DNA of 64,000 nt from Chloracidobacterium thermophilum B (GTDB lineage Bacteria; Acidobacteriota; Blastocatellia; Chloracidobacteriales; Chloracidobacteriaceae), in contig NC_016024.1 of NCBI RefSeq assembly GCF_000226295.1, positions 727,501-791,500 on the forward strand. Direction: 5' to 3'. This document shows, piece after piece, positions 20,987 through 35,881 of this stretch (position 1 is the first letter of the stretch; each line of letters starts with the position of its first letter). The notes under the pieces were generated by a model. That model searched no databases. It was not told where the DNA came from and was given only the letters and a program-made list of their open reading frames with translations. The translations under genes were made by a program, and so were the position numbers.

Positions 20987-21045
20987 GGGATAATTGCCTC
21001 CTGCCCGTAACCTGGATCGGGAACCGTCTTCCTGGTAAAGAAAAT

Positions 21046-21074
21046 ACTATATTCAGCGCGCCGAATTCGGCGAA
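21046..21074 (-). promoter_or_regulatory. Possible internal promoter for ftsZ
   Basis: On the minus strand TTCGCC (21069-21074) is followed after 17 bases by TATAGT (21046-21051), overlapping the 3' end of ftsA. The -35 box is weak. A 12-bp palindrome GCCGAATTCGGC (21060-21071) overlaps the -35 end and might be an operator. ftsZ often has its own promoter, which is the main reason to list it. Confidence 0.35.
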
Positions 21075-22303
21075 GAAAAGAAACTTTTTATCCCTGCCAG
21101 CCAGTGGCGCCAACTTGTTTCCCGCTGCCGCAAATAGTGATTGGCACGTGGTCGAATGCTTGAAAGAATAAGCCCGATGGCTGTTGACCACTCAGCACGG
21201 CGCAGTTCCTCGTTGAGACCGTCCAAACCCATTGGCACGCCGATCCGAACCGGAAGGTCAAGCATCCGTTCGGCCAGTTCAGGAATACCGGACAAGAGAC
21301 TGCCGCCGCCTGTCAAGACCAATCCGCTGGACAACTTTTTCTCAAAACCTGCCTTCTGAAGATTCTCCTGAATTTCCTTGAAAATCTCCTCTGCCCGTGG
21401 CTGAAGCATTTCGCAGAGCACCTGCCGCGAAAGCATCCGCGACCGCCCGCCAGAAGCAGTAACTTCAAGCTGTTCCTGTCGCTCGTTGGGGTGCAGAAGC
21501 GAAGAGAAAACGCATCCAAAAGTCTGTTTGATGCGTTCAGCTTCGGGAACCGGTGAACGAAGCCCAACCGCAATGTCGTTGGTGAAATGCGTGCCCCCGA
21601 TACCGAACATCGCCGTGTGGCGCACCGCCCCGCGTTGGAAGACCGCAAGGCTGGTGATTTCACCACCAATATCAACGATGGCCGTACCATATTCACGTTC
21701 TTCTTCGGTGAGGGTGGCTGTCGCAGCCGCAAGGGAACCAAGGGTGAGGTCTTCGACAATGATACCCAGCCGGTTGGCGCTTGTCACGATGTTTTGCGAT
21801 GCCGTGACCGGCGAAGTCACGATATGTACGGAAACTTCGAGCCGCATCCCCAACATACCGAGGGGATCGCCAATTCCATCCTGTTCGTCCACCACAAACT
21901 CCTGGGGCAGGACCTCGACGATACCCCGGTCTGAGGGCAGGTTGACGGCACTGGCCTGTTCGATAACCCGCTGGATGTCCGTGCCTGTAATCTGCCGGTT
22001 GCGGCTCGACACCGCCACCACGCCATGCCCGTTGAGACCGCGCACATGTAGTCCTGACAGGCTGGCATGAACCGAAGCAATTTCAAAGCCGGCCATTTTT
22101 TCAGCTTCCGTCAGGCACTGGCGAATGGTCTCTTCAGCCTGTTCGATGCTGACCACAACCCCCTTGCGGATGCCCTTCGAGGGCACATCGGCGTAGCCAG
22201 CCACCGTCCAGCGCGCCCGATCCGGTACCGGTGTGGCAATGACCATGCGGGTCCGGGTCGAGCCAAGGTCAAGGCTGGCAAGGTAGGGTGTGGCGCGCGC
22301 CAT
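21053..22303 (-). CDS. ftsA: Cell division protein FtsA
   Basis: A 416-residue actin-like ATPase that anchors FtsZ to the membrane. It has the phosphate-1 motif in LASLDLGSTRTRMVIA, the 1C domain (AGFEIASVHASLSGLHVRGL), VEVLPQEFVVDEQDGIGDPL, a phosphate-2 motif in YGTAIVDIGGEITSLAVFQR, and the adenosine motif SSGLVLTGGGSLLSGIPELA. The C-terminus (SWRHWLAGIKSFFSS) is the amphipathic membrane-targeting helix expected in FtsA. It starts eight bases after ftsQ stops. Confidence 0.97.
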   Translation of the reverse strand: MARATPYLASLDLGSTRTRMVIATPVPDRARWTVAGYADVPSKGIRKGVVVSIEQAEETIRQCLTEAEKMAGFEIASVHASLSGLHVRGLNGHGVVAVSSRNRQITGTDIQRVIEQASAVNLPSDRGIVEVLPQEFVVDEQDGIGDPLGMLGMRLEVSVHIVTSPVTASQNIVTSANRLGIIVEDLTLGSLAAATATLTEEEREYGTAIVDIGGEITSLAVFQRGAVRHTAMFGIGGTHFTNDIAVGLRSPVPEAERIKQTFGCVFSSLLHPNERQEQLEVTASGGRSRMLSRQVLCEMLQPRAEEIFKEIQENLQKAGFEKKLSSGLVLTGGGSLLSGIPELAERMLDLPVRIGVPMGLDGLNEELRRAEWSTAIGLILSSIRPRANHYLRQRETSWRHWLAGIKSFFSSPNSAR

Positions 22304-22311
22304 AGTCCGTG

Positions 22312-23328
22312 CTACCTCCGCGCTGCCGAACCCGCCTGGCGGGAAGTGGATTTGGGAGCAGCTTTCGGGGGGGACGACATTGCCTTGGCGCCGGTCGTTG
22401 TCCGGGCTGGAGGGGCAGGCAGGCGTTCATCGAACTCCAGGTTGACCTGCCGGGCGCTCACCATGTTGACCGTCTTGAGATAGGGCGCTTTCTCGAAGAT
22501 ACGCGGATCAGAAAAGCGCATGCGTTCAAGAATCGAGGTGTCACGGCGCTGAAGCGCGTCCACGATTTCACAGGCATGGAGGAGCCGTTCCCGAAAGTCC
22601 TCCCGGCCCAGTCCAACGACAATGCGGCTATTACGAAGCTGAACGCGCACGTCCTGAAGCTGCGACAGGTCAACGGATTCAATACGTTCGGAAAGGCGTG
22701 GTTCGGCCGCGTCGAGCGCCCAGGTGAGGTTACGGTACAGTTGCAGCCGCTCGCGGTTTTCGCGGCGTCCGGCTGCATCGCGGTCGGACGCCAAACCAAC
22801 GGCCAACACAGGTGGCTCTCCATCGGTATCCGGGTCGTACGCCGCAATCACGACCCCTTCTTCATCCAGCCAGACGAGGTTGCTGCGTTCAGCCATCTGG
22901 GCCAGCACAAACGGTTTGCGTTCCTCGACCACGATCCGCAGCGTGTCCGGCAGAATACGCACGATCCGGGCCTGCCGCACCCGGGGCAGGCTTTCCAGGT
23001 TCTGGCGCAGCGTCGGGAGCGAGACCGTCAGCAGGGAGCCGGTGGACTGCTGGCGGACGAGACGCTCGATGTCCTCCGCAACGGGCGGCTGACAACCAAT
23101 AACCTCCACCTGACGCAGCAGAAACAGGGATGACCGCGTCATGGCCAGCCCAAGACTGCTCAGTCCGACCAGCAGTACAACCCAGAGGATGCCGGTCCGC
23201 CAGGCATAAAGTTGCTCCCATACCGCTCCCTGCCGCGTGCGCGGGATACGGATGGCCGCTGCCTCGCGCGTCTGTTCACGACGGGAAGGTAGGACCTGGC
23301 GGGTTGTGCGTTTGTGAGCCACCGACAC
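22312..23328 (-). CDS. ftsQ: Cell division protein FtsQ
   Basis: A 338-residue bitopic divisome protein. There is a basic cytoplasmic N-terminus (about 1-45), one membrane segment (ILWVVLLVGLSSLGLAM), then a POTRA domain starting LFLLRQVEVIGCQPPVAEDI. The beta domain has LPRVRQARIVRILPDTLRIV, VEERKPFVLAQ and NLVWLDEEGVVI. The last 35 residues form a Lys/Ala/Pro-rich tail with no counterpart in short FtsQ proteins. A GTG start is used. It lies between murB and ftsA. Confidence 0.93.
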   Translation of the reverse strand: MSVAHKRTTRQVLPSRREQTREAAAIRIPRTRQGAVWEQLYAWRTGILWVVLLVGLSSLGLAMTRSSLFLLRQVEVIGCQPPVAEDIERLVRQQSTGSLLTVSLPTLRQNLESLPRVRQARIVRILPDTLRIVVEERKPFVLAQMAERSNLVWLDEEGVVIAAYDPDTDGEPPVLAVGLASDRDAAGRRENRERLQLYRNLTWALDAAEPRLSERIESVDLSQLQDVRVQLRNSRIVVGLGREDFRERLLHACEIVDALQRRDTSILERMRFSDPRIFEKAPYLKTVNMVSARQVNLEFDERLPAPPARTTTGAKAMSSPPKAAPKSTSRQAGSAARR

Positions 23329-23364
23329 GTTACGACTCCTGACGGCTTCAATCCAGGAACATCC

Positions 23365-24261
23365 TTACTCCCAGACTTCGACTTCCATATCGAGTTCAAT
23401 GCCACGTGCTTCGCGTACACGTGACCGAATCCGCTCAATGAGGGCAAAGACATCGGCTGCCCGTGCTGACCCATTCGTGACAATGAAGTTGGCATGGACT
23501 GGAGAAATGGTTGCCCCGCCGATGGTTTCACCTTTCATGCCAAGTTCGTCAATGATGCGCCCGGTAGCCAGCCCCGGCCCCGGATTTTTGAAAATGCAAC
23601 CGGCGCTGTTGTCCCTGACCGGTTGCGTCGCTGCCCGGTGGCGACGGTACTCCGCAATTTCGGCCCGGCTGGCCTCCGGGTTGCCGGGCCGGAGTTGAAG
23701 TGTCGTCCCCAGAATCAGGTCCCGTTCGGTAAATGGAGAGTGACGGTAGGCAAAATCCAGCGTCTCCCGTGGCAGTGTCACGATGCGCCGCTCGCGGGCG
23801 ACATCCACCGAGACGATGACATCGGCAATTTCATAGCCATGCGAGCCGGCGTTCATCTTCACGGCACCGCCAACGCTGCCGGGAATCGGCGCCAGCCCTT
23901 CAATCCCGGACAATCCCCGGTCGGCGCACTGGTTGACGAGCCGGGGCAGGCTGTAACCGGCCGGCACTTTGACCTGACAGCCCTCAAACCTCACGGGCGT
24001 TTTGAGTTGCCGCAGACTGATGGCAACGCGGTCGAGTGGCCCATCCGCCACCAGGAGATTTGTGCCGTAGCCCAGCGGACTCCAGCGCAAACCGTGTTCT
24101 TCCAGCCTGGCCACCAGGGCGGCCGCTTTTTCCGGCGTGTCGGGAAAGGCCACACAGGCGATTTCCCCACCCGTGCGCAGTGAAGTCAGGTGGCGCATCG
24201 GCTGGTGAAAGCGGGCTGCGACATCGAGTTCGGCACAGATTTCCTCAACAGACTTGGGCAT
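23365..24261 (-). CDS. murB: UDP-N-acetylenolpyruvoylglucosamine reductase MurB
   Basis: A 298-residue FAD enzyme that reduces UDP-GlcNAc-enolpyruvate to UDP-MurNAc. The FAD-binding part shows HLTSLRTGGEIACVAFPDT, WSPLGYGTNLLVADGPL and GLAPIPGSVGGAVKMNAGSH. Later come YRHSPF and NSAGCIFKNPG, where a Cys replaces the usual proton-donating Ser, as in type II MurB proteins. HANFIVTNGSARAADVF closes the fold. The ATG at 24261 overlaps the murC stop by 17 bases and has AAGG upstream, so translation is probably coupled. Confidence 0.97.
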   Translation of the reverse strand: MPKSVEEICAELDVAARFHQPMRHLTSLRTGGEIACVAFPDTPEKAAALVARLEEHGLRWSPLGYGTNLLVADGPLDRVAISLRQLKTPVRFEGCQVKVPAGYSLPRLVNQCADRGLSGIEGLAPIPGSVGGAVKMNAGSHGYEIADVIVSVDVARERRIVTLPRETLDFAYRHSPFTERDLILGTTLQLRPGNPEASRAEIAEYRRHRAATQPVRDNSAGCIFKNPGPGLATGRIIDELGMKGETIGGATISPVHANFIVTNGSARAADVFALIERIRSRVREARGIELDMEVEVWE

Positions 24262-25612
24262 CCTGCAAAAACCTTTCACCAAGCTGCCAGACATTACCTG
24301 CCCCCACGGTCAACAGCACATCGCCGGGACGAAGTTGCGCCGCAACGGCTGGCAGGGCCGCATCGAGCGCGCCAACAGCCTGCACGGCCGGATGTCCCGC
24401 CGCCTGTACGGCTGCTGCCAGCGCCGCCGCTGTCACCCCGGGCAGGGGTGTTTCGCCCGCCGGGTAAATATCCACGATACAAACCACATCCGCCTCCCGC
24501 AGCACCGTTACGAACTCAGCAAACAGATGCTGTGTCCGCGTGTAGCGGTGCGGCTGAAACACCAGAACGATCCGGCGTCCGGCGCTGCGCGCTGCATCAA
24601 GTACGGCGGCAATCTCAACCGGGTGGTGGCCGTAATCGTCAATGACGAGAACATTATTCCTTTCCCCACGAATTTGGAACCGTCTGGAAACATTTTCAAA
24701 CATTTCCAGACCCGTTTGTACATCTTTGAAGTCTAAACCAAGTTCCAGTCCAGCGGCGATAGCCGCCAGTGCGTTGTGGATGGCGTGCCGGCCCGGTACG
24801 CGCAGCCGGACCGGGCCCAGACAAGCCGGCCCGCGCCAGACCGTAAAGCGCCAGCCGAAGGGCTTTTGGGGAACAATGTCTGCCGCCCGAATCTGGGCTT
24901 CCGCCGCCTGGATGCCGTACAGCGTACAGCGCCGGGTCAACCGGGGCAGCAGCGCCTGCACACCGGCATCGTCAGCGCAGGCAATGACCACGCCTGTTTC
25001 CGGTACGCCCTCGGCAAACCATACGAAATGGTCGAGGATAGCGTCGAAATCACGGTAAAAATCGAGATGGTCGCGGTCCACATTGGTGATGATTGCCAGC
25101 GTACGCGGCAGCTTGAGAAACGAGCCATCGCTTTCGTCAGCTTCGGCGACAAAGTGCGGCCCCGTCCCGACCATCGCCCCACTGCCGAGATCGGCAAAGG
25201 CCGCGCCAATGACGGCGGTTGGGTCCTGTCCGGCCGCGCGCAGTATCGTGGCAACCATGGCACTGGTCGTCGTCTTACCGTGCGCACCAGCGACAGCCAC
25301 GGCCACCTTGCCTGCCATGAGTTCGGCCAGCATCTCCGCCCGGTGCACAATGGGGATGCCCCGGGCCTGGGCTGCCAGCCGCTCCGGGTTGTCGGCTTTG
25401 ACGGCCGTGGAAACGACGACCCGCTGAGCATCGCCAAGCTGTTCCGGTGCGTGCCCGATGAAAACCTGCGCACCCAGCGCCTGCAGGCGGGCGGTTGTCG
25501 CCGAAGCCGCCAAATCCGACCCGGAAATCTGCCAGCCACGCCGGAGGGCGACTTCGGCAATGCTGCTCATACCGCTGCCCCCAATGCCGATGAAGTGCAA
25601 GTGCTCAGCCAT
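24245..25612 (-). CDS. murC: UDP-N-acetylmuramate-L-alanine ligase MurC
   Basis: A 455-residue ATP-dependent ligase that adds L-Ala to UDP-MurNAc. It has MAEHLHFIGIGGSGMSSIAE, the P-loop VAVAGAHGKTTTSAMVATIL, FVAEADESDGSFLKLPR, ITNVDRDHLDFY, and the C-terminal VLVIDDYGHHPVEIAAVLDA with VFQPHRYTRTQHLF. The ATG at 25612 lies eight bases after murG stops, with AGGT just upstream; longer readings would overlap murG. Confidence 0.98.
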   Translation of the reverse strand: MAEHLHFIGIGGSGMSSIAEVALRRGWQISGSDLAASATTARLQALGAQVFIGHAPEQLGDAQRVVVSTAVKADNPERLAAQARGIPIVHRAEMLAELMAGKVAVAVAGAHGKTTTSAMVATILRAAGQDPTAVIGAAFADLGSGAMVGTGPHFVAEADESDGSFLKLPRTLAIITNVDRDHLDFYRDFDAILDHFVWFAEGVPETGVVIACADDAGVQALLPRLTRRCTLYGIQAAEAQIRAADIVPQKPFGWRFTVWRGPACLGPVRLRVPGRHAIHNALAAIAAGLELGLDFKDVQTGLEMFENVSRRFQIRGERNNVLVIDDYGHHPVEIAAVLDAARSAGRRIVLVFQPHRYTRTQHLFAEFVTVLREADVVCIVDIYPAGETPLPGVTAAALAAAVQAAGHPAVQAVGALDAALPAVAAQLRPGDVLLTVGAGNVWQLGERFLQDAQVC

Positions 25613-25619
25613 GACTACC

Positions 25620-26696
25620 TCATCCTGGGCGATGCAGAATCTGGAACGCAACATCTACGGTGCGTTCGGCTGCGTGTGGTCGCGCCAGCGCCCGGCTGGC
25701 GGCTTCCATCCGGGCCAGCCGCGCCGGGTCAGCCAGCAGCTCCAGAATCGTCCGGGCCAGTTTTTCACCCGTCAGTTCGGCCTGTACGATCATCTCTCCG
25801 GCGCCGGCGCGGACAAACGCCTCGGCATTCCGGCGCTGGTGATCGTCGGCAGCCTGGGGGAAGGGGATGAAAATGGCCGCGCGCCCGGCAGCGGCCACCT
25901 CGGCGATGGTGGCGGCTCCGGCGCGGCAGACCAGCACATCGGCGGCGGCCATGGCTTCGGCCATGGCGTGGATAAAAGGCTGTACGTCGGCCTGCACACC
26001 GGCTGCCGCATAGGCGGCACGTACCATTTCGACATCGCGCTCGCCCGTCTGGTGAACAATCCGCAAACCGGGATGGGCTGCCAGCCAGGGCGCGGCTTCC
26101 GCCATGGCGCGGTTGATGGCCTGCGCCCCCTGGCTGCCGCCAAACACCAGCACGTGCCGGCGCGGAGCCTCGGCCGGGCGGGGCGGAATCTGCTCAAACT
26201 CGGCGCGTACCGGCGTCCCGGTCAGGACGGCCCTGGCCCCGAAGTACGCGGCGGTTTCCTGGTAAGACACGGCGGCGGCGGTGACGAAGCGGGCGAGTAT
26301 CCGGTTGGTCAGGCCGGGCAGGACATTGACTTCAACGGCCAGGGTCGGGACACCCCGCATGATCGCCGCCAGCATCGCCAGCCCGGAGGCATAGCCGCCG
26401 ACTCCGACGGCAATATCCGGCTTGAAACGCCCGATGAGTTGCCAGGCTTTCCAGAAGCCGACAGGCAATACGGCCAGACTCTGGAAACGGCGCTGCCAGG
26501 AAACGTTGTTGAGTGCGCCGGAGGGGATGAACGTCAGCTCGAAACCGGCCGCCGGGACGAGTTTCTTTTCCAGCCCGCGTTCTGTCCCCACAAAATGGAC
26601 TTCCGTGGTGGCATCACGTTGCCGGAACGCCTGGGCAATGGCAATGCCGGGGAAAATGTGTCCGCCGGTGCCGCCGGCCGCCATCAGGACACGCAC
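25620..26696 (-). CDS. murG: UDP-GlcNAc transferase MurG (lipid II synthesis)
   Basis: A 358-residue GT28 enzyme that transfers GlcNAc to lipid I on the inner face of the membrane. It has the GTGGH loop in MRVLMAAGGTGGHIFPGIAI, FVGTERGLEKKLVPAAGFEL, IAVGVGGYASGLAMLAAIMR, LVFGGSQGAQAINRAMAE, and the donor-site stretch VCRAGAATIAEVAAAGRAAI with PFPQAADDHQRRNAEAF. The common EQN acceptor-loop motif is EVN here. A GTG start is used. Confidence 0.97.
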   Translation of the reverse strand: MRVLMAAGGTGGHIFPGIAIAQAFRQRDATTEVHFVGTERGLEKKLVPAAGFELTFIPSGALNNVSWQRRFQSLAVLPVGFWKAWQLIGRFKPDIAVGVGGYASGLAMLAAIMRGVPTLAVEVNVLPGLTNRILARFVTAAAVSYQETAAYFGARAVLTGTPVRAEFEQIPPRPAEAPRRHVLVFGGSQGAQAINRAMAEAAPWLAAHPGLRIVHQTGERDVEMVRAAYAAAGVQADVQPFIHAMAEAMAAADVLVCRAGAATIAEVAAAGRAAIFIPFPQAADDHQRRNAEAFVRAGAGEMIVQAELTGEKLARTILELLADPARLARMEAASRALARPHAAERTVDVAFQILHRPG

Positions 26697-26798
26697 GCTG
26701 CACGCCTCTTGTCTCTCAAAAATTCGCCCTGGCTGTGGCCGGGTACGGCTTTCGATCCGTTTGCCAACCGTGGCCGTTTGCCAACCGTGGACGCGGTT

Positions 26799-27932
26799 TC
26801 ACGTTCGCCGCGACACACTCAGCAGCCAGCCGACAGCCAGCAGACTCATCATCATCGAACTGCCGCCGTAGCTGATGAAGGGTAACGGAATCCCCTTGGC
26901 CGGTACCAGACTCAACACAACGCTCAGATTGAACAGCGCCTGCCCCACGAGCAGAACGGTGACCCCGGTTGCCAGGAGCTTGCCAAAGTCGTCCGGGGCC
27001 AGAAAGGCCGCACGCAGACCGCGAAAGGCCAGAATGCCGAACAGTCCGACGACCATGAGGCTGCCAATGAGACCGACTTCTTCGGCAATAACTGAAAAGA
27101 TGAAGTCCGTATGCGCTTCCGGCAGGTAAAACAACTTTTGGCGGCTCTGGGCAAAGCCGACGCCCGACACGCCGCCACTGCCGACGGCCATCAACGACTG
27201 CACAATCTGGAAACCTTCTTCCCTGGGAGCTTTCCAGGGGTCAAGAAAGGCCAGCAGCCGGGCGCGCCGGTATGGCTCTCTGAGCAGGGCATAGAGCAGC
27301 AGCGGCGAGCAGAGCAGTCCCGCGAGCGCCGGATAGCGGAGCGGCACGCCGGCCACGACGAGCATCGCTGTCGCCGTCCCGCCCATCATCAGAATCGTTC
27401 CCAGGTCCCGCCCCAGAAAAACGAGTCCCATCAGCAGTCCCACGACGAGGCCGACCGGGAGCAGTCCCTGTCGCGGATCACGGCGCGCCGGCGCGTCTTT
27501 CCGGCTGAGGAAATAGGCCAGAAAGAGCACCATTGCGAGCTTGGCCAGTTCAGAAGGCTGAAACATCAGCCCCGGCAGACGAATGAAGCGATGCGTGCCC
27601 CGGACCGGGGGCAGCAGCAGGACGAGCACCAGCAGGGAAACCGTGACGCCCAGCAGCCCATACACCACCCACGGCCGTTCCAAGCGTGCGTAGCCAAGCC
27701 ACAGGCTGCCGAGCAGCAGCCCGGTTCCCAGCAGGGCGGCCAGCCCCTGGCGCAGGACGAAGTGAAATTGCGTCCGGTAGGTTTCGTGCGCCAGGGCCGC
27801 CGAGGCGCTATAGACCATGACCAGGCCAAACATCACCAGCGCAATCGTCGTGACGAGCAGCCATGGGTCCACAAACGTCACCAGGTTGCGCGAAACAGGC
27901 ACCACGGTGGGAATGGTCAATCTGGGCTGCAT
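26799..27932 (-). CDS. ftsW: Peptidoglycan glycosyltransferase FtsW (SEDS family)
   Basis: A 377-residue protein with about ten membrane segments. It polymerises lipid II at the septum with a partner class B PBP. Landmarks are ALVMFGLVMVYSASAALAHE, FIRLPGLMFQPSELAKLAMV, the catalytic-Asp loop FLGRDLGTILMMGG, GFQIVQSLMAVGSGG, LPEAHTDFIFSVIAEEVGLI and GIPLPFISYGGSSMMMSLLA. The partner FtsI is not encoded in the window. The start overlaps the murD stop by 16 bases; a 100-base gap with no clear feature separates it from murG. RodA is the alternative, but the position in the cluster favours FtsW. Confidence 0.95.
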   Translation of the reverse strand: MQPRLTIPTVVPVSRNLVTFVDPWLLVTTIALVMFGLVMVYSASAALAHETYRTQFHFVLRQGLAALLGTGLLLGSLWLGYARLERPWVVYGLLGVTVSLLVLVLLLPPVRGTHRFIRLPGLMFQPSELAKLAMVLFLAYFLSRKDAPARRDPRQGLLPVGLVVGLLMGLVFLGRDLGTILMMGGTATAMLVVAGVPLRYPALAGLLCSPLLLYALLREPYRRARLLAFLDPWKAPREEGFQIVQSLMAVGSGGVSGVGFAQSRQKLFYLPEAHTDFIFSVIAEEVGLIGSLMVVGLFGILAFRGLRAAFLAPDDFGKLLATGVTVLLVGQALFNLSVVLSLVPAKGIPLPFISYGGSSMMMSLLAVGWLLSVSRRT

Positions 27933-29344
27933 GACGCCTCACGCTGCACATTCGAAATCAACCCCTTGACTGTTGCCTTGAAAACCCGTCCCCGGTGCTC
28001 GAAGTTATCAAACATATCGAAACTGGCACAGGCCGGCGCAAGCAGAACCACATCGCCGGGCCGGGCACGCCGGGCCAGACTGTGAACCGCATCTTCCAGA
28101 CTGGCATGGCGCGTGATGGGCTGCGGCAGCCGTCCGGCAAAGGTGGCGGCAATTTTTTCAGCAGCCGTGCCGATGAGTGCCACGGAAACCGCCCGCGACG
28201 CCAGGGCGTCCACAAGCGGAGCAAAGTCGCTGTTTTTGTCCAGACCGCCAAGAATGACGTGCAGCCCGGACGGAAAAGCCTCGATGGACACCTGGGCCGC
28301 TGCCACATTCGTTGCCTTGGAGTCGTTGAAGTACCTGACGCCGGCGACTTCAGCCACAAACTCCAGCCGGTGTTCCAGCCCGCGAAAGTCCCGGATGGTT
28401 GTCCGGGCAGTTTCCGGGTCCACTCCAGCGGCAAGGGCCGCGGCCAGGCTGGCCAGGATGTTTTCCAGATTGTGCCGGCCGGGCAGGGGCAGGTCGGCGC
28501 GGTGAAGCAGCACCCGCTCGGCCTGCCGGGTACGGCACACCAGCTCGTCCCCACGTGGAAAAAGCCCTTCTTCCAGTTCCCGTTGGGCTGAAAAGAGCGT
28601 CACCGGCGCACCCTGGGCCGCAAGCTGTGCCTGGGCGCGGGGTGTCGTCGGGTCATCGGCATTGAGCACGGCGAGGGTCTCACCGTCAAACCGGCGAAAC
28701 ATGTTGAGTTTGGCGGCCACGTAGTTTTCAAACGTGCCGTGGCGGTCGAGGTGATCCGGCGTGATGTTGAGCAGGACGCCGATGTGCGGACGGAAGGTGA
28801 CGACGGTTTCAAGCTGGAAGCTGCTGCATTCGAGTACCGTCCAGCCGTCGTCGCGCGAAGTCTCCACCAGTGAGACGGCCGCCACACCAATGTTGCCACC
28901 GACTTGGGTCAGCAGCCCGGCCTCAGCAAGCAGGCGTCCGATCAGGGTCGTTGTCGTGCTTTTGCCGTTGCTGCCCGTAATGGCGACGATGCGCCCGCGC
29001 AGGTGGCGGAAGGCCAGTTCGATTTCGCCAATGATGGGCACACCGGCTTCCCGCGCCGGCTGAAGTGCCGCCAGTCCGGGCGGGACGCCGGGGCTGAGCA
29101 CAATTTCATCGGCGGCACGCAGGGTTTCGGGTCGGTGCGCTCCGGCTTCAATGGCAATGCCTTCCGATGGGAGTTGGATGACTTCCGGCGGCAGCTTTTC
29201 AGCCGGGCGCTGGTCGGTGAGGGTCACTTGCGCGCCGCGCGCTGCCAGAAACCGCGCCGCACCAATTCCACTGACACCGGCCCCGACCACGACGAGGTGA
29301 CGGCCGGCATAGCTCTGGTTGTTCGTGTTGTTGAGGGCAGGCAT
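27917..29344 (-). CDS. murD: UDP-N-acetylmuramoyl-L-alanine-D-glutamate ligase MurD
   Basis: A 475-residue Mur ligase that adds D-Glu. The N-terminal nucleotide domain has HLVVVGAGVSGIGAARFLAA. The P-loop is in IVAITGSNGKSTTTTLIGRL, followed by VLECSSFQLETV, NITPDHLDRHGTFENYVAAK, GLEHRLEFVAEVAGVRYFND-type substrate residues, and SKATNVAAA. The C-terminal part has VILGGLDKNSDFAPLVDAL and LLAPACASFDMFDNFEHRG. It lies two bases after the mraY stop. Confidence 0.98.
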   Translation of the reverse strand: MPALNNTNNQSYAGRHLVVVGAGVSGIGAARFLAARGAQVTLTDQRPAEKLPPEVIQLPSEGIAIEAGAHRPETLRAADEIVLSPGVPPGLAALQPAREAGVPIIGEIELAFRHLRGRIVAITGSNGKSTTTTLIGRLLAEAGLLTQVGGNIGVAAVSLVETSRDDGWTVLECSSFQLETVVTFRPHIGVLLNITPDHLDRHGTFENYVAAKLNMFRRFDGETLAVLNADDPTTPRAQAQLAAQGAPVTLFSAQRELEEGLFPRGDELVCRTRQAERVLLHRADLPLPGRHNLENILASLAAALAAGVDPETARTTIRDFRGLEHRLEFVAEVAGVRYFNDSKATNVAAAQVSIEAFPSGLHVILGGLDKNSDFAPLVDALASRAVSVALIGTAAEKIAATFAGRLPQPITRHASLEDAVHSLARRARPGDVVLLAPACASFDMFDNFEHRGRVFKATVKGLISNVQREASCSPD

Positions 29345-29346
29345 CG

Positions 29347-30459
29347 TTACCGTAGCTTGAGCGTCGCCAGGGCGACGAGGGCAAAGAAAATCTGCACGAT
29401 GAGGAAGCGAAAGACGATTTTGGATTCCTTCCAGCCGGTAAGTTCAAAGTGGTGGTGCAGCGGCGACATCTTGAAAATCCGCTTGCCGATGCCGGTCTGC
29501 GGGTCCTTCGTCAGCTTGTAGTAACTCACCTGCAGGATGACGGAAAGCGTTTCGATGACGAACACGCCGCCCAGAATGACCAGCAGCAGTTCCTGTTTGA
29601 TGACGATGGCCACGCAGCCCATGCAGCCGCCAATGGCCAGGCTGCCGACATCACCCATAAACACTTCCGCCGGCGGTGCGTTGAACCAGAGAAAACCCAG
29701 GCTCGCGCCGGCCAGCGCCGCGCAAAACACAGTGACTTCAAGCGCCAGCGGGCTGGGTGGCAGGTTGAGGTAGAGCGCCAGTTCGGTCAGACCTGTGACA
29801 TAGCACAGCAGGGTGAGCGTCAGCGCGACGACGAACGTCGTGCTGATGGCGAGGCCGTCGAGGCCATCCGTCAGGTTGACGGCGTTCGAGCTGCCCGTCA
29901 TCACCAGCAGCATAAACGGCAGATAGAGCCAGGCTGTCAGGTCGGGCTGGAAATCCTTGAAAAACGGCACACTGAGGTAGGTGGCATAGTTGCCGAAACC
30001 GATGAGAACGCCCCCGATGACCAGAGCCGTTGTCACCTGTCCGAGGAGTTTCCAGCGTCCCTGCAGGCCGAGGTTCTGCCGCCTGGCGATTTTCAGGTAG
30101 TCGTCCAGAAAGCCAATCGCCCCGTGCGCCAGCAGGGCAAACAGGACCACCCAGACGTACAGGTTGCTCAGATCGGCCCACAGGAGCGTTCCGGCAACAA
30201 TGCCCGTGATGATGAGCACACCGCCCATGGTCGGCGTTCCTTTCTTGGCCTGGTGCGCCTTGACGCCTTCTTCCCGGATTTCCTGCCCGTACTTGAGGCG
30301 GCGCAGCCAGGCAATCATCGGCGCGCCGAGCAGAAGGCAGATAAGTGTGGCCGTCATTGCCGCCAGCAGGGCGCGAAAGGACGGATAGCCGAAAACGCGG
30401 AGCGGGCCAAAAACCTGGTATTTCAGGTGCAGAACTTCATAGAGCAGGTAGTAGAGCAT
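29347..30459 (-). CDS. mraY: Phospho-N-acetylmuramoyl-pentapeptide transferase MraY
   Basis: A 370-residue, ten-segment membrane enzyme that makes lipid I from UDP-MurNAc-pentapeptide and undecaprenyl phosphate. Landmarks are [48 protein letters not shown] (catalytic Asp pair and Asn), [20 protein letters not shown], and near the end [20 protein letters not shown]. Length and motifs are standard. It lies between murF and murD. Confidence 0.98.
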
Positions 30460-30468
30460 CGCGCGTGC

Positions 30469-31887
30469 CTACGCCGGCAGGGCCTCCAGACAGGTTTCCA
30501 ACCGTACCCCCCGTGAACCCTTGATGAGAATGACATCCCCGGCTTGGACGTGGCTGGCCAGCCAGCGGCCGGCTTCGGCTGCGGTTTCGACGAAATCCGT
30601 GAGCATCCCGTGGTTCTGTTCGGCCTGGGCGGCGGCCACCAGATCGCGGGCATGGCCGGCGACGCCCAGCAGGATGTCCACCCTGGCATGAGCGAGCGCG
30701 CGCCCGCAGGCGATGTGCATCTCCCTGGATTGCTCGCCGAGTTCGAGCATTTCGCCGGCGACAACAATCCGCCGCCTGGCGTCGGGCACCTGTTCCAGCA
30801 GCCGCACGGCTTCCTGCAGGGCGACGGGGTTGGAGTTGTAGCTGTCATCCACGACGGTAAATCCGCCGGCGTAGCGCCGGACGACGCCGCGATGGGGTCC
30901 CGGCTGCGCCAGCCGGAGCTGGGCGGCGATGGCGTCCGGGCTGACACCGAAGTGGGTCGCCACGGCCGCCGCTGCCAGCGCATTGCTGATGTGGTGTTCG
31001 CCGACCAGCGGAAGTTCAACGGCTGCCTGTCCTTTCAGCGTGGAAAGCGTAAACGTCGTACCCAGCAGCCCACGGGAGGTGACATCGAGTGCTGTGACGT
31101 GGGAGGCTTCGTTCCGCCCGAAGTACATCACCTGCGCCCCGCTGTGTTCCTGCCGCCGCGCCAGGACGATGGCCGCCATGCGGGCTACGCGCGGATCGTC
31201 GGCATTCAGAATGGCCGTGCCCGTCGGCTTCAGCCCGTGGACGATTTCCGCCTTGGCTGCGGCAATGCCTTCCAGCCCGTCGGGAAAGTTCTCGATGTGA
31301 ACCGGGGCGACATTGAGGACAACACTGACATCCGGGGGCGCAATCTCGCACAGCCGCGCGATTTCGCCTTTTTCGTTCATGCCCATTTCGAGCACGGCCA
31401 CGTCGTAGTCCGCCATGCGCCGCCCGTCCGAAAGCATCTGGAAGACGGCCAGAGGCAGGCCGTATTCGTTGTTGAGGTTGCCCACCGAGGCGTAGATGCG
31501 TCCGTAAGGCGCAAGTGTCAGCGCCGTGAGGTCTTTGGCGGTCGTTTTGCCCATGCTGCCGGTGATGCCGACGATGGGGCGTCCCCACCGGTGCAGCAGC
31601 GCCCGGGCCAGTTCCTGCATGGCGCGGAGCGTGTCCGGCACGAGCAGACAGCGGGCGGCGGCTGGTTCCAGTTCCGGCAGTGGGCGATGAATGACGGCCG
31701 CACACGCGCCACGCGCCAGGACTTCCGGCACAAACGCATGGGCGTCGAAACGTTTTCCGTGAATGGCAAAAAACAGGTCGCCGGGGCGAATGGTGCGTGA
31801 GTCAATCGAAAAGCCAACCGGCGTGATGGCGCGCAGCCCTTCAGGGCAGGCAATTCCCAGCAGGTCGGCAAGGTCGGCAAGGGTCAC
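30469..31887 (-). CDS. murF: UDP-N-acetylmuramoyl-tripeptide-D-alanyl-D-alanine ligase MurF
   Basis: A 472-residue Mur ligase that adds D-Ala-D-Ala. It has FSIDSRTIRPGDLFFAIHGK, the P-loop in IVGITGSMGKTTAKDLTALT, NLNNEYGLPLAVFQM, AVLEMGMNEKGEIARLCEI, LNVAPVHIENFPDGLEGIAA and FTVVDDSYNSNPVALQEAVR. A GTG start is used, with GGAG eight bases upstream. It lies 45 bases after murE. Confidence 0.97.
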   Translation of the reverse strand: MTLADLADLLGIACPEGLRAITPVGFSIDSRTIRPGDLFFAIHGKRFDAHAFVPEVLARGACAAVIHRPLPELEPAAARCLLVPDTLRAMQELARALLHRWGRPIVGITGSMGKTTAKDLTALTLAPYGRIYASVGNLNNEYGLPLAVFQMLSDGRRMADYDVAVLEMGMNEKGEIARLCEIAPPDVSVVLNVAPVHIENFPDGLEGIAAAKAEIVHGLKPTGTAILNADDPRVARMAAIVLARRQEHSGAQVMYFGRNEASHVTALDVTSRGLLGTTFTLSTLKGQAAVELPLVGEHHISNALAAAAVATHFGVSPDAIAAQLRLAQPGPHRGVVRRYAGGFTVVDDSYNSNPVALQEAVRLLEQVPDARRRIVVAGEMLELGEQSREMHIACGRALAHARVDILLGVAGHARDLVAAAQAEQNHGMLTDFVETAAEAGRWLASHVQAGDVILIKGSRGVRLETCLEALPA

Positions 31888-31932
31888 AGCAGGTACTCCG
31901 CAGGGATGAGGGTCTGGTTGTGGCCGCGCACT

Positions 31933-33435
31933 TTACTCCATTGGCGTTCCTTTGTCCGACCGAAGCCGACGGAGTGCCTGGCGGGCTTCTTCGCGGTCAT
32001 CGAAGTGAATGGTCAGGTGATTGAGAATCTGGTACGTCTCGTGTCCCTTGCCAGCAATGACGACGACATCGCCGGGTTGCGCCGTTTGAATGGCAAAGGC
32101 AATGGCCTGGCGTCGGTCAAGTATCCGGTGATAGGGCTTGCCGACGGCGCGCAAGCCGACTTCGGCGTCGTCCAGGATGCGCTCCGGGGCTTCCCGCCGT
32201 GGATTGTCCGACGTCAGGATGGTGAGGTCGCTGCCCTGGGCCGCCGCTTCGGCCATCAGCGGACGTTTGGTGCGGTCACGGTCGCCGCCGCAGCCAAACA
32301 CGGTGATGACCCGTCCCCGGCGGAGGCGGGCCAGTTCGCGGGCGGTGGCTGTAACGTTGGCCAGGGCATCAGGGGTGTGGGCATAGTCCACGGCTACCAG
32401 CAGATGGTCGTCACTGCCTTCGACCACTTCAAACCGCCCGGGCACGACCGTGTTGGCCACCCCGGCCAGGATGGCGTCGGTCGGAACATCGAGCGCCAGC
32501 GCCGTGGCCGTGGCGGCCAGAATGTTGTAGGCGTGAGGCGTGCCCACGAGGTGCGTGGCCAGATCGAGCATTCCGCGGGGCGTGTGGAGCGACAGCGCCA
32601 TGCCGCGTGTGTGAACGTCGAGCCGGGCGAGGCGGACTTCAGCACCGGGGTCGTGGACGGCGTAGGTCACAATCCGGGCGCGGCCGTTGATGGCCGTGAT
32701 GATGTCGGGCGTGCGGGCGTCGTCGGTGTTGAGAACGGCAATTCCGGGAACTTCTCCGTTACGCCCGTCAAAGAGCCGCAACTTGGCGTCGAAGTACCGC
32801 TCCATTGTGCCGTGGTAGTCCAGGTGATCCTGGGTCAGGTTGGTGAAAATGGCAGCAGCAAACCGCATGTCGGCGACGCGCCACCGGTCAAGCCCGATTG
32901 AGGACACCTCGATAGCGGCATGGCGGCAACCGCTGTCCCAGGCGCGTCGCAGGAAGGCCTGCACTTCCGGGGCTTCCGGCGTGGTCAGACGCGAGGGGCG
33001 GCGATCATCATCCATGCGCTGTTCAATGGTGCCGAGCAGCGCGGCGTGTCCGTAGGCGGCGCGGAAGATTTCGTAGAGCAGGTAGGTGGTGGTCGTCTTG
33101 CCGTTGGTGCCGGTGACGCCGATAACGTGTATGTGATGGCTGGGATGCCCGTGGAGCAGCGCCGCCACTTGGCCAAGGGCACGCCGGGCATCGGCCACCT
33201 GAATCCACGCGGCCGGAAAATCCGGTGGAGCCGGGCGTTCCGAGAGAATGGCCTGGGCGCCACGCGAGAGGGCTTCCGGGATGAAGTCGTGGCCGTCGGC
33301 CCGGGTGCCGGGGAGGGCAGCAAAAATACTGCCCGGCTGACAGGCTCCAGCCAGGCAGGTGATGTCACGTACCTCAAAGCTTTCGCCGCTGACGCAACCG
33401 GCAACGGCGGCTGCCACGGCGTGCAAGGCAGGCAT
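31933..33435 (-). CDS. murE: UDP-N-acetylmuramoyl-tripeptide synthetase MurE
   Basis: A 500-residue Mur ligase that adds the third stem residue. It has the P-loop in VIGVTGTNGKTTTTYLLYEI, STPE-type LTTPEAPEVQAFLRRAWDSG, AAIEVSSIGLDRWRVADM, FTNLTQDHLDYHGTMERYFD, VDYAHTPDALANV and VFGCGGDRDRTKRPLMAEAA. The substrate loop reads SDNPRREAPERIL; DNPR is the form usual in meso-diaminopimelate-adding MurE. The ATG has GGAG about ten bases upstream. It lies 75 bases after the PAS protein. Confidence 0.97.
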   Translation of the reverse strand: MPALHAVAAAVAGCVSGESFEVRDITCLAGACQPGSIFAALPGTRADGHDFIPEALSRGAQAILSERPAPPDFPAAWIQVADARRALGQVAALLHGHPSHHIHVIGVTGTNGKTTTTYLLYEIFRAAYGHAALLGTIEQRMDDDRRPSRLTTPEAPEVQAFLRRAWDSGCRHAAIEVSSIGLDRWRVADMRFAAAIFTNLTQDHLDYHGTMERYFDAKLRLFDGRNGEVPGIAVLNTDDARTPDIITAINGRARIVTYAVHDPGAEVRLARLDVHTRGMALSLHTPRGMLDLATHLVGTPHAYNILAATATALALDVPTDAILAGVANTVVPGRFEVVEGSDDHLLVAVDYAHTPDALANVTATARELARLRRGRVITVFGCGGDRDRTKRPLMAEAAAQGSDLTILTSDNPRREAPERILDDAEVGLRAVGKPYHRILDRRQAIAFAIQTAQPGDVVVIAGKGHETYQILNHLTIHFDDREEARQALRRLRSDKGTPME

Positions 33436-33454
33436 GGGCGATAAACTCCAGCGG

Positions 33455-33471
33455 CGGCAGAATGTCTGCCG
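33455..33471. other. Short perfect hairpin in the murE leader
   Basis: CGGCAGA (33455-33461), three-base loop, TCTGCCG (33465-33471). It lies 20 bases upstream of the murE start. No T-run follows on either strand, so it is not an intrinsic terminator; it may affect murE translation or transcript stability, or be chance. Confidence 0.3.
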
Positions 33472-33510
33472 TCAGGTCAATCTTGCATAGGGGCGTGATG
33501 TCCGGCGCGG

Positions 33511-35061
33511 TCACTGCGGAAGCCCCAGCCACTCGGCAAGCTGTTTGGCATGGTGCTCGATGTTGCGGAACATCTCGAACTGCTGGGGGTTCATGGGCCC
33601 GTACTCACCGCGATGCAGCAGTTCGGCAAAGCCGAGAACCATCTGAAGTGAAGTGCGCATGGCGGTCAACTGTTCGGGTGTAACCTGCAGGGCCGAGACC
33701 GGGGCCGGCGGGGGCGAGAGGTCTTCCATCATCTGGGCAAATTCGGCGCGCAGGCGTGTTTCGTCCCGGATGGCAATGACACGCCCGCCCGGCCATGGGT
33801 CTTGGGCAGGCAACTCCAGGACCACGAACGAAGCCATCATGGACTGCCCATCGGGAAGCATCACGTTTGTTGAAAACTGCTGGGCTTCAGTTGTGACGCT
33901 CAGGTGTTCCCAGAGGGGGGCGTTGTCGCTGCCAAGCTGCTGGCTGATGTCAAGCAGTGACCGCCCCAGCAGGTTCTGCCGTGGTGCGCCGAGCAGGTAT
34001 TCGGCCATCGGGTTCACCTGCTGAAGGATGCCTTGGGCGTCGAGCACCATCAGGGCTTCATCGAGGTTTTCAATCAGCCAGTCCGACCAGCTTGCCGGTC
34101 GGGCGTCTGGCACGCTGGCTGCAACTGGTTCTACTGTCCCGGCAGCGGAAACCGGCGCTGCTACGCTCGTCGAGGGCATCACCGGCGTGTCAGCGGGAGG
34201 AAATCCCCAGTTGTTGACCGGGGCCAGCGGCGCTTCCATGGGCACTCCCTGGGAAAAACCTCCGGCTGCTGAAGGAAACTCCATTGGCGGCGGTGGCACG
34301 TAGGTGCTTTCTGTCAGGAAAGCTTCCACCGGCTGGGTGATAGCCGGCGGCACGGTCATTGACGCTACCGAGGCCGGCGGCGGGCCTGTATCCATCCCGT
34401 CGCCTTGGGATGGAAAATCTGTGGATGAAAAATCCGCCACAGAAGGCGCAGCGGGTGCTTCCGCAGGTGTCCAGCTCAGGTCAACCCTGCCGGAGACCTC
34501 GAAGGGAGCGACGGCCGGGGCAACTGGCGGAGCAGTGAGAAGTGCATCGGTCGGAACACTTGCCGGGGCAACGTTGGGTGCTGGCACATCCGGTGGCAGG
34601 TCCAAAACGGGAACATCCACTGCAGGAGGGACAGCAGGGGCCTTTTCGTCCAGCGATACGTCGAACCAGTCACCATCAATGGGCGTGGTTGTATCCAGGG
34701 GCGGCGTTTTCTGTCCTGTGTCTGCCGTTGCCGGGGATGAAGCCGCCGCGGATGAAGCCGCCGCTCCGGGAGGGAGCGTTGACGTCAGACCATCACCGTA
34801 GCTGTTGGCCGTTCCGGGTGGCGGTGTTTTGGGTGGAGTTGGTGGTGAAGGCTCGCGGTGTCCGCCAGTGAATTGACCGAGCAGGGACTGGACAACACTC
34901 CCGGAGGTCCGCACTGGAGGAGGCGGATGGTCGGCCGCGACAACCGTGGGCGAGACCTCAACCGGAATGACAGGTTCCGTTTCCGGCCGGTCTTTGGGCG
35001 CTGCCGATGCGTCGGCAGCCTTGTTGCCGCGAATCGCATTGAGGAGCTTGCTGAAGTCCAT
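33511..35061 (-). CDS. PAS-domain protein with disordered N-terminus and degenerate histidine-kinase dimerisation domain
   Basis: A 516-residue soluble protein of unknown role heading the division/wall cluster. The first 20 residues (MDFSKLLNAIRGNKAAD) form a helix. About 310 Pro/Ala/Val-rich residues of low complexity follow, then a PAS domain at about 333-445 (NLDEALMVLDAQGILQQVNP, AEYLLGAPRQNLLGRSLLDI, GGRVIAIRDETRL). Residues 465-510 align by eye with a HisKA dimerisation helix: LTAMRTSLQMVLGFAELLHR, then GEYGPMNPQQFEMFRNIEHH. In kinases this reads SHELRTPL; here Thr466 replaces the phospho-accepting His, and no ATPase domain follows. It is thus a sensor or adaptor without kinase activity. 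GGAGG lies five bases before the ATG. It sits where mraZ-rsmH-ftsL-ftsI usually are. Confidence 0.85.
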   Translation of the reverse strand: MDFSKLLNAIRGNKAADASAAPKDRPETEPVIPVEVSPTVVAADHPPPPVRTSGSVVQSLLGQFTGGHREPSPPTPPKTPPPGTANSYGDGLTSTLPPGAAASSAAASSPATADTGQKTPPLDTTTPIDGDWFDVSLDEKAPAVPPAVDVPVLDLPPDVPAPNVAPASVPTDALLTAPPVAPAVAPFEVSGRVDLSWTPAEAPAAPSVADFSSTDFPSQGDGMDTGPPPASVASMTVPPAITQPVEAFLTESTYVPPPPMEFPSAAGGFSQGVPMEAPLAPVNNWGFPPADTPVMPSTSVAAPVSAAGTVEPVAASVPDARPASWSDWLIENLDEALMVLDAQGILQQVNPMAEYLLGAPRQNLLGRSLLDISQQLGSDNAPLWEHLSVTTEAQQFSTNVMLPDGQSMMASFVVLELPAQDPWPGGRVIAIRDETRLRAEFAQMMEDLSPPPAPVSALQVTPEQLTAMRTSLQMVLGFAELLHRGEYGPMNPQQFEMFRNIEHHAKQLAEWLGLPQ

Positions 35062-35194
35062 CGAGTCCTCCGTCGCTGGTGCGCCGGCGGGGTTTGGAAA
35101 CTTTCAAGGGGGGTGACACCCGCCCTGGTGTGCGAAGACTAACTTGGTAGCAATGCTGCGTGTGTTATCGTCTGGAACGGTTATTTCATTTGTT

Positions 35195-35248
35195 TTACAA
35201 CAGCATACCCGTCACCCAGGCCCACCGCCGGGCGACGATATTGGACAT
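35195..35248 (-). CDS. Possible 17-codon leader ORF
   Basis: Between the predicted promoter and the PAS gene an ATG opens a frame for MSNIVARRWAWVTGMLL, ending TAA. It has only a weak upstream purine stretch and no regulatory codon run. Listed because it lies inside a long leader; it may be chance. Confidence 0.2.
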   Translation of the reverse strand: MSNIVARRWAWVTGMLL

Positions 35249-35295
35249 CCGTCGGTAAGGACAGAAAAACAATAGCCAAGTCTGAAGCCGTCACG

Positions 35296-35324
35296 AGTAT
35301 AAATAACCGGTATTCACCCTACAA
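35296..35324 (-). promoter_or_regulatory. Predicted sigma70-type promoter of the division/cell wall cluster
   Basis: On the minus strand TTGTAG (35319-35324), 17-base spacer, TATACT (35296-35301). Transcription would begin near 35289, giving a leader of about 228 bases before the PAS gene. The close-spaced, often overlapping genes down to ftsZ fit a single long transcript from here. Confidence 0.6.
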
Positions 35325-35407
35325 GTCTTGGCCTGTGATTTGTCCAGTCACCACGTGATGCATCAAGACAAAGCTGCAATATCCATGGATTTTTCGGAGT
35401 GATGGCG

Positions 35408-35881
35408 ATGAATGTCAGGGAAAAACTCGAAGCGGAGCTACGGCAACTCGAACAGGAACTGAAGATTGACCTTCCACGCGAACTCCAACGGGCAGCCGCT
35501 TATGGTGATCTGCGCGAAAACGGGGAGTACCAGGCGGCGCGCGAGCGGGTCCGGCTGGTTGGGGCGCGGGTCGCGGAATTGCACCAGCGGCTGGCGGCGC
35601 TGGCTGCCATCAATCTCGATTCGTTGCCCCGGGACCGGGCGGCGTATGGTTCCACGCTGCGGGTGCTTGACCTCGATAAGGATATCGAAGTGACCTATCG
35701 CCTGGTTATGCCCGAGGAAGCTGATGTTTCAAAGGGACTGATTTCGACTTCCTCTCCCCTTGGACGTGGGTTTATGGGCAAGCAGCCCGGTGATGAAGTC
35801 GAAGTGCAAACGCCGCAGGGCCTGCGCCACTTTGAAATTCTGAGTCTGCGCACCATCCACGATGATGACTCCGCCACTTGA
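35408..35881 (+). CDS. greA: Transcription elongation factor GreA
   Basis: A 157-residue factor that enters the RNA polymerase secondary channel and stimulates cleavage of backtracked RNA. The N-terminal coiled coil (MNVREKLEAELRQLEQELKI) carries the acidic tip in AAYGDLRENGEYQAARERV, equivalent to the usual GDLSENAEY, so the catalytic Asp and Glu are kept. The C-terminal FKBP-like domain ends PLGRGFMGKQPGDEVEVQTP. The ATG at 35408 has GGAG eight bases upstream and is preferred to a GTG or ATG at 35399/35402. Confidence 0.93.
   Translation: MNVREKLEAELRQLEQELKIDLPRELQRAAAYGDLRENGEYQAARERVRLVGARVAELHQRLAALAAINLDSLPRDRAAYGSTLRVLDLDKDIEVTYRLVMPEEADVSKGLISTSSPLGRGFMGKQPGDEVEVQTPQGLRHFEILSLRTIHDDDSAT

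Follow-up and report, generated by a model that had tools for sequence, protein, structure and literature searches.

What is a protein that resembles part of a histidine kinase, but has neither the phosphorylated histidine nor the ATPase domain, doing at the head of a division and cell wall gene cluster? The question arises from a 64,000-nt stretch of the Chloracidobacterium thermophilum B genome (3,695,372 bases in two contigs), here called the window, in which a gene for a protein of 516 residues occupies positions 33511 to 35061 and lies directly upstream of murE. An earlier interpretation of the bare letters, referred to below as the sequence-only reading, had proposed that the gene stands in the place of mraZ-rsmH-ftsL-ftsI and that this position suggests a link to division control. 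That reading named no strand; the plus strand of 33511-35061 is full of stops, and the open reading frame, which has orthologues in other genomes, lies on the minus strand. We use PASX as a working name for the encoded protein.

Domain architecture of PASX

PASX consists of a Pro/Ala-rich tract, a PAS domain and a HisKA-like C-terminus, preceded by a conserved N-terminus (residues 1-66; 34864-35061, minus strand) that was delimited by identity among orthologues. Mean identity in that comparison was 0.76 over residues 1-20, 0.68 over residues 21-40 and 0.62 over residues 41-60. The first helix is possibly amphipathic, with a hydrophobic moment of 0.34-0.60 calculated without a background control, and is followed by the motif VVQSLLG. 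The tract (residues 67-325; 34087-34863, minus strand), defined by composition and orthologue identity, is 21% P and 62% P/A/S/T/G and contains short conserved motifs, with WFDVSL and PFEVSGxVDLSWTP kept within the genus. It corresponds to what the sequence-only reading called a long disordered tail; the length and the skewed composition are as described, and the tract is presumably disordered, judging from composition alone.

The PAS domain named in that reading (residues 329-435; 33757-34077, minus strand) was recovered by several methods that agree with one another. Pfam matched PF00989 above its cut-off (E 2e-8, residues 329-406), AlphaFold2 modelled the fold with pLDDT values of 82-92 across most of the region, and a model of the PAS domain plus the C-terminal hairpin gave 339 PDB matches at a Foldseek E of 0.001 or less. 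The top Foldseek match was a LOV-histidine kinase, aligned over 198 columns at an rmsd of 17.9 because the angle between PAS domain and hairpin is not fixed. VIA-align, which also identified the domain, covers mainly the PAS part of the model (model residues 1-128).

A HisKA/DHp-like helical hairpin without a phosphosite (residues 462-511; 33529-33678, minus strand) was assigned from HMM comparison, the orthologues and the AlphaFold2 model, in which the two helices span residues 138-159 and 168-188 of 192 with a confidence of only about 66-73. No HATPase_c domain was matched in PASX by Pfam or NCBIfam, and the protein stops 50 residues past Thr466, the position of the phosphosite, in agreement with the earlier statement that the ATPase domain is missing.

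HisKA ancestry and loss of the phosphosite

The Pfam HisKA family (PF00512) gave PASX a score of 12.5 bits where the cut-off is 26.9 (E 0.16, residues 468-509), and its match to the orthologue in G009, which represents another genus of the same family, also fell below the curated threshold (E 0.0015). With a HisKA HMM of our own, made from 30 of the 36 HisKA places of the host genome (those with loci), the last 75 residues of all ten orthologues scored 18.6-27.9 bits. Shuffles of the same residues (2000 made, 1963 reported) reached at most 8.5 bits, in a control that consisted of shuffled sequence only and not of unrelated helical hairpins. Chance likeness to HisKA is ruled out by this control, and the derivation of the PASX C-terminus from a HisKA hairpin, as the sequence-only alignment had implied, is supported at the level of sequence similarity.

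The HMM alignment starts just past the position of the H-box His, at which the orthologue alignment places Thr466 (codon 33664-33666, minus strand), the residue that had been named at that position from the letters alone. The ten orthologues have T in four cases, A in two, and K, R, S and N once each; the 30 HisKA of the host genome have H in 29 and Y in one. The acidic residue that follows the H-box His has been lost from the orthologues as well (A in eight, R in one, S in one). We considered Thr466 as a phospho-Thr site and rejected it, Thr being found in only 4 of 10 orthologues; a site that varies among T, A, K, R, S and N is unlikely to be phosphorylated on Thr. Judged from these features, PASX is a catalytically dead yet maintained module that lacks both phospho-His and ATPase domain.

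Constraint on the hairpin and its possible docking face

No part of PASX is better conserved than the hairpin, which has a mean identity of 0.97 over residues 481-500; windows in the tract had mean identities of 0.13-0.59 among the orthologues. Its core, residues 471-505, is nearly invariant while synonymous sites drift. We counted codon differences over these 35 codons rather than applying a formal dN/dS test. Between PASX and its orthologues in the other three genera there were 22 synonymous and 2 non-synonymous differences for G007, 19 and 4 for G009, and 16 and 2 for G008. Five of the six other Chloracidobacterium genes differed from PASX by 11-17 synonymous and no non-synonymous changes (15 and 0 for G005), and the remaining one, G004, by 5 and 1. 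By these counts the hairpin is under strong protein-level constraint across four genera. A nucleotide-level cause, such as a murE promoter within the 3' end of PASX, was rejected because synonymous sites drift and because the hairpin is kept where no murE follows.

The conserved residues can be compared with the docking face of DivL. In the published model of the DivL-DivK complex (PMC4211667), DivL residues G561, Y562 and L565 touch DivK, and the substitution Y562A weakens binding. At the corresponding offsets from the phosphosite (+11, +12 and +15), PASX has G477, F478 and L481, all invariant in 10 of 10 orthologues. Since G is also found at the first of these positions in 19, Y or F at the second in 12 and L at the third in 17 of the 30 ordinary HisKA of the host genome, their retention in PASX partly reflects the fold. 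R553 and T557 are further docking positions mutated in DivL (PMC4211667); at the first (+3) the PASX orthologues have R in seven cases and H in three, and at the second (+7) they have Q, M or L, never T. On helix 2, a pair of histidines, His503-His504 (codons 33550-33555, minus strand), is invariant in all ten orthologues; among the 30 HisKA of the host genome, His occurs at the position of 503 in none and at that of 504 in one (L126).

Distribution of PASX

Of 162 genomes of the class searched with a PAS-DHp profile, 10 have PASX, in one copy each and with E values no worse than 4.9e-85. They are the ten genomes listed for one family, seven of them belonging to Chloracidobacterium and three to other genera (G007, G008 and G009). 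Weak matches at E <= 1e-6 (best 1.9e-9) were found in 15 further genomes of the class. These were rejected as wider orthologues, most of them resembling ordinary PAS or kinase proteins in matched range and frame length; larger stretches were examined for three of the 15 (G025:C106, covering the first 50 residues of the protein only, G040 and G044). A search of eight genomes with the first 80 residues of the G009 protein gave no second clear place for the N-terminal motif, the one extra row having an E of 0.08 and a stop inside. Among the matches listed from the open-licence literature, no title or abstract opening named PASX, and none concerned an ATPase-less, His-less HisKA protein of Acidobacteriota.

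In the three sister genera PASX is longer, with extra sequence between the tract and the PAS domain. The predicted fold of this region in G009 matches the GAF domain of a phytochrome (VIA Z 13.4, rmsd 2.8, 137 aligned), in a model that has a mean pLDDT of 71 and is weak in parts; three segments of the sister-genus proteins gave no GAF match in Pfam, even with E values up to 10 admitted. On the predicted structure, the sister-genus form of PASX appears to carry a GAF-like domain between tract and PAS.

Gene order around PASX

PASX directly precedes murE, in the same orientation and with a gap of 75 nt, and in this sense does head the cluster, as had been stated. Behind it runs the block murE-murF-mraY-murD-ftsW-murG-murC-murB-ftsQ-ftsA-ftsZ (19826-33435, minus strand), an arrangement found only in Chloracidobacterium. 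In 7 of 7 genomes of that genus murE starts 58-75 nt downstream of PASX. It is beside PASX in 0 of the 3 other genera, where it lies elsewhere, downstream of mraZ/rsmH/ftsL/ftsI, in the kept order mraZ-rsmH-ftsL-ftsI-murE; the PASX contig of G008 is only 6,270 bases long, and murE of that genome is on another contig with ftsI, rsmH and mraZ. The linkage beyond the genus that would mark a core dcw component is thus absent, the outcome that the sequence-only reading had itself named as counting against its proposal. The neighbour that is conserved, in 10 of 10 genomes, is the divergent gene greA (35399-35881, plus strand), beyond which a lytic-transglycosylase gene is found in 8 of the 9 genomes with that side covered, the exception being G007. 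The statement that PASX stands in place of mraZ-rsmH-ftsL-ftsI is literally true in Chloracidobacterium, but PASX occurs without murE in the other genera, and the step from its position to division control is unsupported, given a murE link confined to one genus and a conserved neighbour that is greA.

The position of rsmH bears on where the cluster broke. In the PASX family outside Chloracidobacterium (three genera), 2.8-3.4 kb separate it from murE, and it lies 2.5-3.4 kb before murE in the wider set G007, G008, G009, G010, G011, G014, G016 and G018 (murE of G007 is split over two contig ends). In G015 it is far from murE, and in G012, G013, G017 and G019 it is on another contig, a separation that contig breaks may explain. 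Among Chloracidobacterium genomes, rsmH is far from murE on the same contig in G000, G004 and G005 and on another contig in G002, G003 and G006; G001 (85% complete) gave no rsmH hit, so these counts cover six genomes. At all six loci examined rsmH, an ftsL-like gene and ftsI stand together, away from murE, the ftsL-like protein matching Pfam DivIC below cut-off only. All three other genera of the family have mraZ, which gave no match in 7 of 7 Chloracidobacterium genomes or in 4 of 4 genomes of a sister family, f2; the loss of mraZ is therefore not peculiar to the rearranged genomes. The gene order is most simply explained if the cluster broke once, between ftsI and murE, in the ancestor of the genus and the block from murE to ftsZ came to lie behind PASX. 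The murE adjacency is best explained by this rearrangement within one genus and does not look like the mark of an old division role.

A candidate promoter upstream of PASX

A sigma-70-like promoter candidate (CTTGT..., then TATACT or TATATT; 35296-35325, minus strand) was located by pattern matching in all ten genomes, where it precedes the start codon by 252-332 nt and has a spacer of 17-18 nt. The pattern has a single match over both strands of the window; the candidate was first seen by eye, and the pattern check was made post hoc. A generic promoter scan omits it, and its -35 hexamer has 3 of 6 consensus bases. The same scan, an insensitive one, found no promoter-like site in the gap between PASX and murE. 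Because the candidate is common to genera without the murE link, it would predate the rearrangement, and the murE block is probably read from it.

A search of 33000-35800 against Rfam gave no match at E up to 1. Between the promoter candidate and the start codon (35062-35295) lies a second conserved leader block, around TAACACAG...TATT..ACCGAG, which is conserved in other Chloracidobacterium and less well kept in C. thermophilum B. A terminator-like hairpin of 12 pairs followed by TATTTTTG lies inside murE at 33329-33358 (minus strand), about 77 nt past the start codon; it may be due to chance, 7 such sites having been found versus 2.7 expected in the region.

A second family with an ATPase-less hairpin

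The GTDB family f3, of the same class, contains membrane GAF-GAF-PAS proteins that end in a HisKA-like hairpin (L157 4120-6516, L158 4237-6654, L191 4545-7322, L192 5846-8464 and L193 5108-7741; also L199 and L200). A profile made from five of them found the family in 7 of 162 genomes of the class. The five proteins covered in full had no Pfam match to an ATPase domain and stop 59-80 residues past the site. The G033 protein also stops shortly after the hairpin, as do 6 of the 7 in all, and that of G029 runs off its contig; in both cases an in-frame TAG occurs close to where the matched stretch begins and away from the hairpin. The site residue is H in two proteins, R in three and S in two. Neither greA nor murE was present at the five f3 loci checked (13-16 kb each).

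Like PASX, the f3 proteins combine GAF and, in most cases, PAS with a C-terminal HisKA-like hairpin soon after which most of them end. They differ from it in having a hydrophobic anchor instead of the Pro/Ala-rich tract, a tandem GAF, a His still present in 2 of 7, and, at the five loci, no linkage to greA or murE. When 55 targets were scored with a PASX-hairpin HMM, two f3 proteins ranked first and second (38.6 and 38.4 bits), followed by ordinary kinases at 34.8 and 33.3; G021 scored 32.8, G014 22.1, and G025 fell below the best 22 of 55. With ordinary kinases scoring near f3, this ranking does not establish that the two ATPase-less families share an ancestor, and PASX and f3 may have lost the ATPase domain convergently. 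The locus set comprised 30 loci, 25 of them outside family f1, and did not include matches without a locus; L175 and L177 were dropped for contig edges. Among the 23 of these 25 that were covered, three lacked an ATPase-length tail, all of them f3, and the other 20 had at least 219 residues after the match start.

A proposed receiver-docking role and its rivals

PASX may plausibly work by pairing with a second two-component protein rather than as a kinase. Immediately downstream of PASX, G007 and G009 have a gene for a receiver-HD-GYP protein, and G008 has one for a nidogen-domain protein. The regulator gene (REC-HD_5, with the motif HHERIDGxGYP) runs in the same direction as PASX and is its neighbour in only 2 of 10 genomes, or two of four genera. 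A close orthologue of the regulator was found neither in G008 (90% complete, 1090 contigs) nor in Chloracidobacterium, where the best full-length hit had about 33% identity and the gene is not at the PASX locus. Short repeats of the type GGGCTGAAGAAATCGGG lie between PASX and the regulator gene in G009 (L035 10979-11250).

We propose, with about even confidence, that PASX is a pseudokinase adaptor which, like DivL, binds a receiver domain, with the wall and division block probably under its promoter. The hairpin would dimerise and would still serve as a docking site for a receiver domain or a partner kinase; with no phosphotransfer, and hence no chemistry, PASX would read or hold a response regulator. 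The state of the PAS domain, together with the GAF in the sister genera, would tune the affinity of docking, and the long tract and conserved N-terminus would keep the complex tethered. Ancestrally, the partner was likely the receiver-HD-GYP regulator, of the cyclic-di-GMP phosphodiesterase type, whose gene neighbours PASX in two sister genera. In Chloracidobacterium the murE-to-ftsZ half of the broken cluster would be read largely from the PASX promoter, and the link would therefore be one of promoter capture and not of ancient division function. We are far surer of the anatomy of PASX and of the rearrangement than of the binding partner. A broader version, in which Blastocatellia sensors dropped the catalytic half of the kinase, the bare DHp became a response-regulator reader (ancestrally of a cyclic-di-GMP phosphodiesterase) and this reader replaced MraZ in Chloracidobacterium as the first gene of the wall and division operon, is a long shot; if it were true, one signal would set both the level of the reader and the Mur-Fts supply.

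Unlikely, but deserving of some weight, is the idea that the hairpin dimerises with a true histidine kinase, which it would inhibit or scaffold while leaving the response regulator untouched. DHp hairpins are established dimerisation domains, and the host genome, with 35 HisKA matches above the family cut-off, could supply partners; however, the near-invariant stretch 471-505 continues across the turn, a tighter conservation than a dimer core alone would seem to require, and the only two-component gene found beside PASX encodes a regulator, not a kinase. We regard it as distinctly improbable that PASX is a genuine division or wall regulator, governing the activity or expression of Mur/Fts in response to a signal. 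Its constant place directly ahead of murE in Chloracidobacterium would suit such a role, as would the absence from the whole genus of mraZ, the usual regulator at that place. The same hairpin is nevertheless conserved in the three genera that have no murE linkage, so the constraint does not come from the link to mur/fts genes, and there is no DNA-binding domain among the Pfam and NCBIfam matches of PASX.

Might the phospho-acceptor have moved, so that His503 or His504 on helix 2 takes the phosphate and PASX is a phosphotransfer protein of the Spo0B/HPt kind? The invariance of the pair and its rarity among the HisKA of the host genome count in favour, but the f3 proteins lack it, with A, G or K and W, K or L in its place, and we know of no precedent for a phospho-acceptor on helix 2; we hold this to be very unlikely. 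The pair may be docking residues, as DivL has a His, H579, in its docking face (PMC4211667). Hardly credible is the view that PASX is a decaying, vestigial kinase with no remaining function. ATPase domain and phosphosite are both gone and the Pro/Ala-rich tract diverges freely, as decay would have it, but the purifying selection in the hairpin (synonymous to non-synonymous differences of 22:2 against G007 and 19:4 against G009), the single copy in each of the ten genomes and the conserved promoter candidate bring this view close to refutation.

Relation to known systems

To our knowledge there are few worked examples of pseudo-histidine-kinases, DivL above all. Spo0B, ChpT and HPt are helical bundles that are used by receiver domains and have no kinase activity of their own; they carry a phospho-accepting His, and PASX has no His at that position. 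DivL of Caulobacter is a pseudo-histidine kinase that reads phosphorylated DivK and in which the PAS domains play a role (PMC4211667). DivL and PASX are alike in having PAS followed by a HisKA/DHp hairpin in which the phospho-His is replaced; several positions that match docking residues of DivL are kept in PASX, in part a reflection of the fold, and on the docking proposal both would bind a receiver domain without phosphotransfer. In DivL a CA (ATP-binding-type) domain is retained and the site residue is Tyr; PASX has neither, and no fixed site residue. PASX also has the long Pro/Ala-rich tract, and two further DivL docking positions are in PASX partly kept or not kept. We claim no sequence orthology between them. 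MopJ is described as a single-domain PAS protein of the Caulobacter cell cycle (PMC4432633). Both MopJ and PASX are PAS proteins, and an influence on two-component cell-cycle signalling is the feature of MopJ; being single-domain, MopJ is without a HisKA hairpin, and no relationship is claimed.

PASX is a natural minimal pseudokinase, with phosphosite and ATPase domain gone and a hairpin almost frozen across four genera, and together with the second ATPase-less, HisKA-tailed family it would offer a clean test case for DHp hairpins as pure receiver-docking modules. The locus also shows that a division cluster can break and land behind an unrelated gene, which calls for caution in reading function from the gene order of a single genus.

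One further HisKA protein was noted in the host genome. At L160 2565-4937 (minus strand; G000:C1 near 2608085-2608288), a frame of 790 residues has Tyr in place of the phospho-His (DYELRAPL); behind this site come ATPase, receiver and GGDEF domains. We take this protein to be a kinase homologue with a DivL-like Tyr site, fused to a diguanylate cyclase, the likeness of the site to that of DivL being based in part on PMC4211667.
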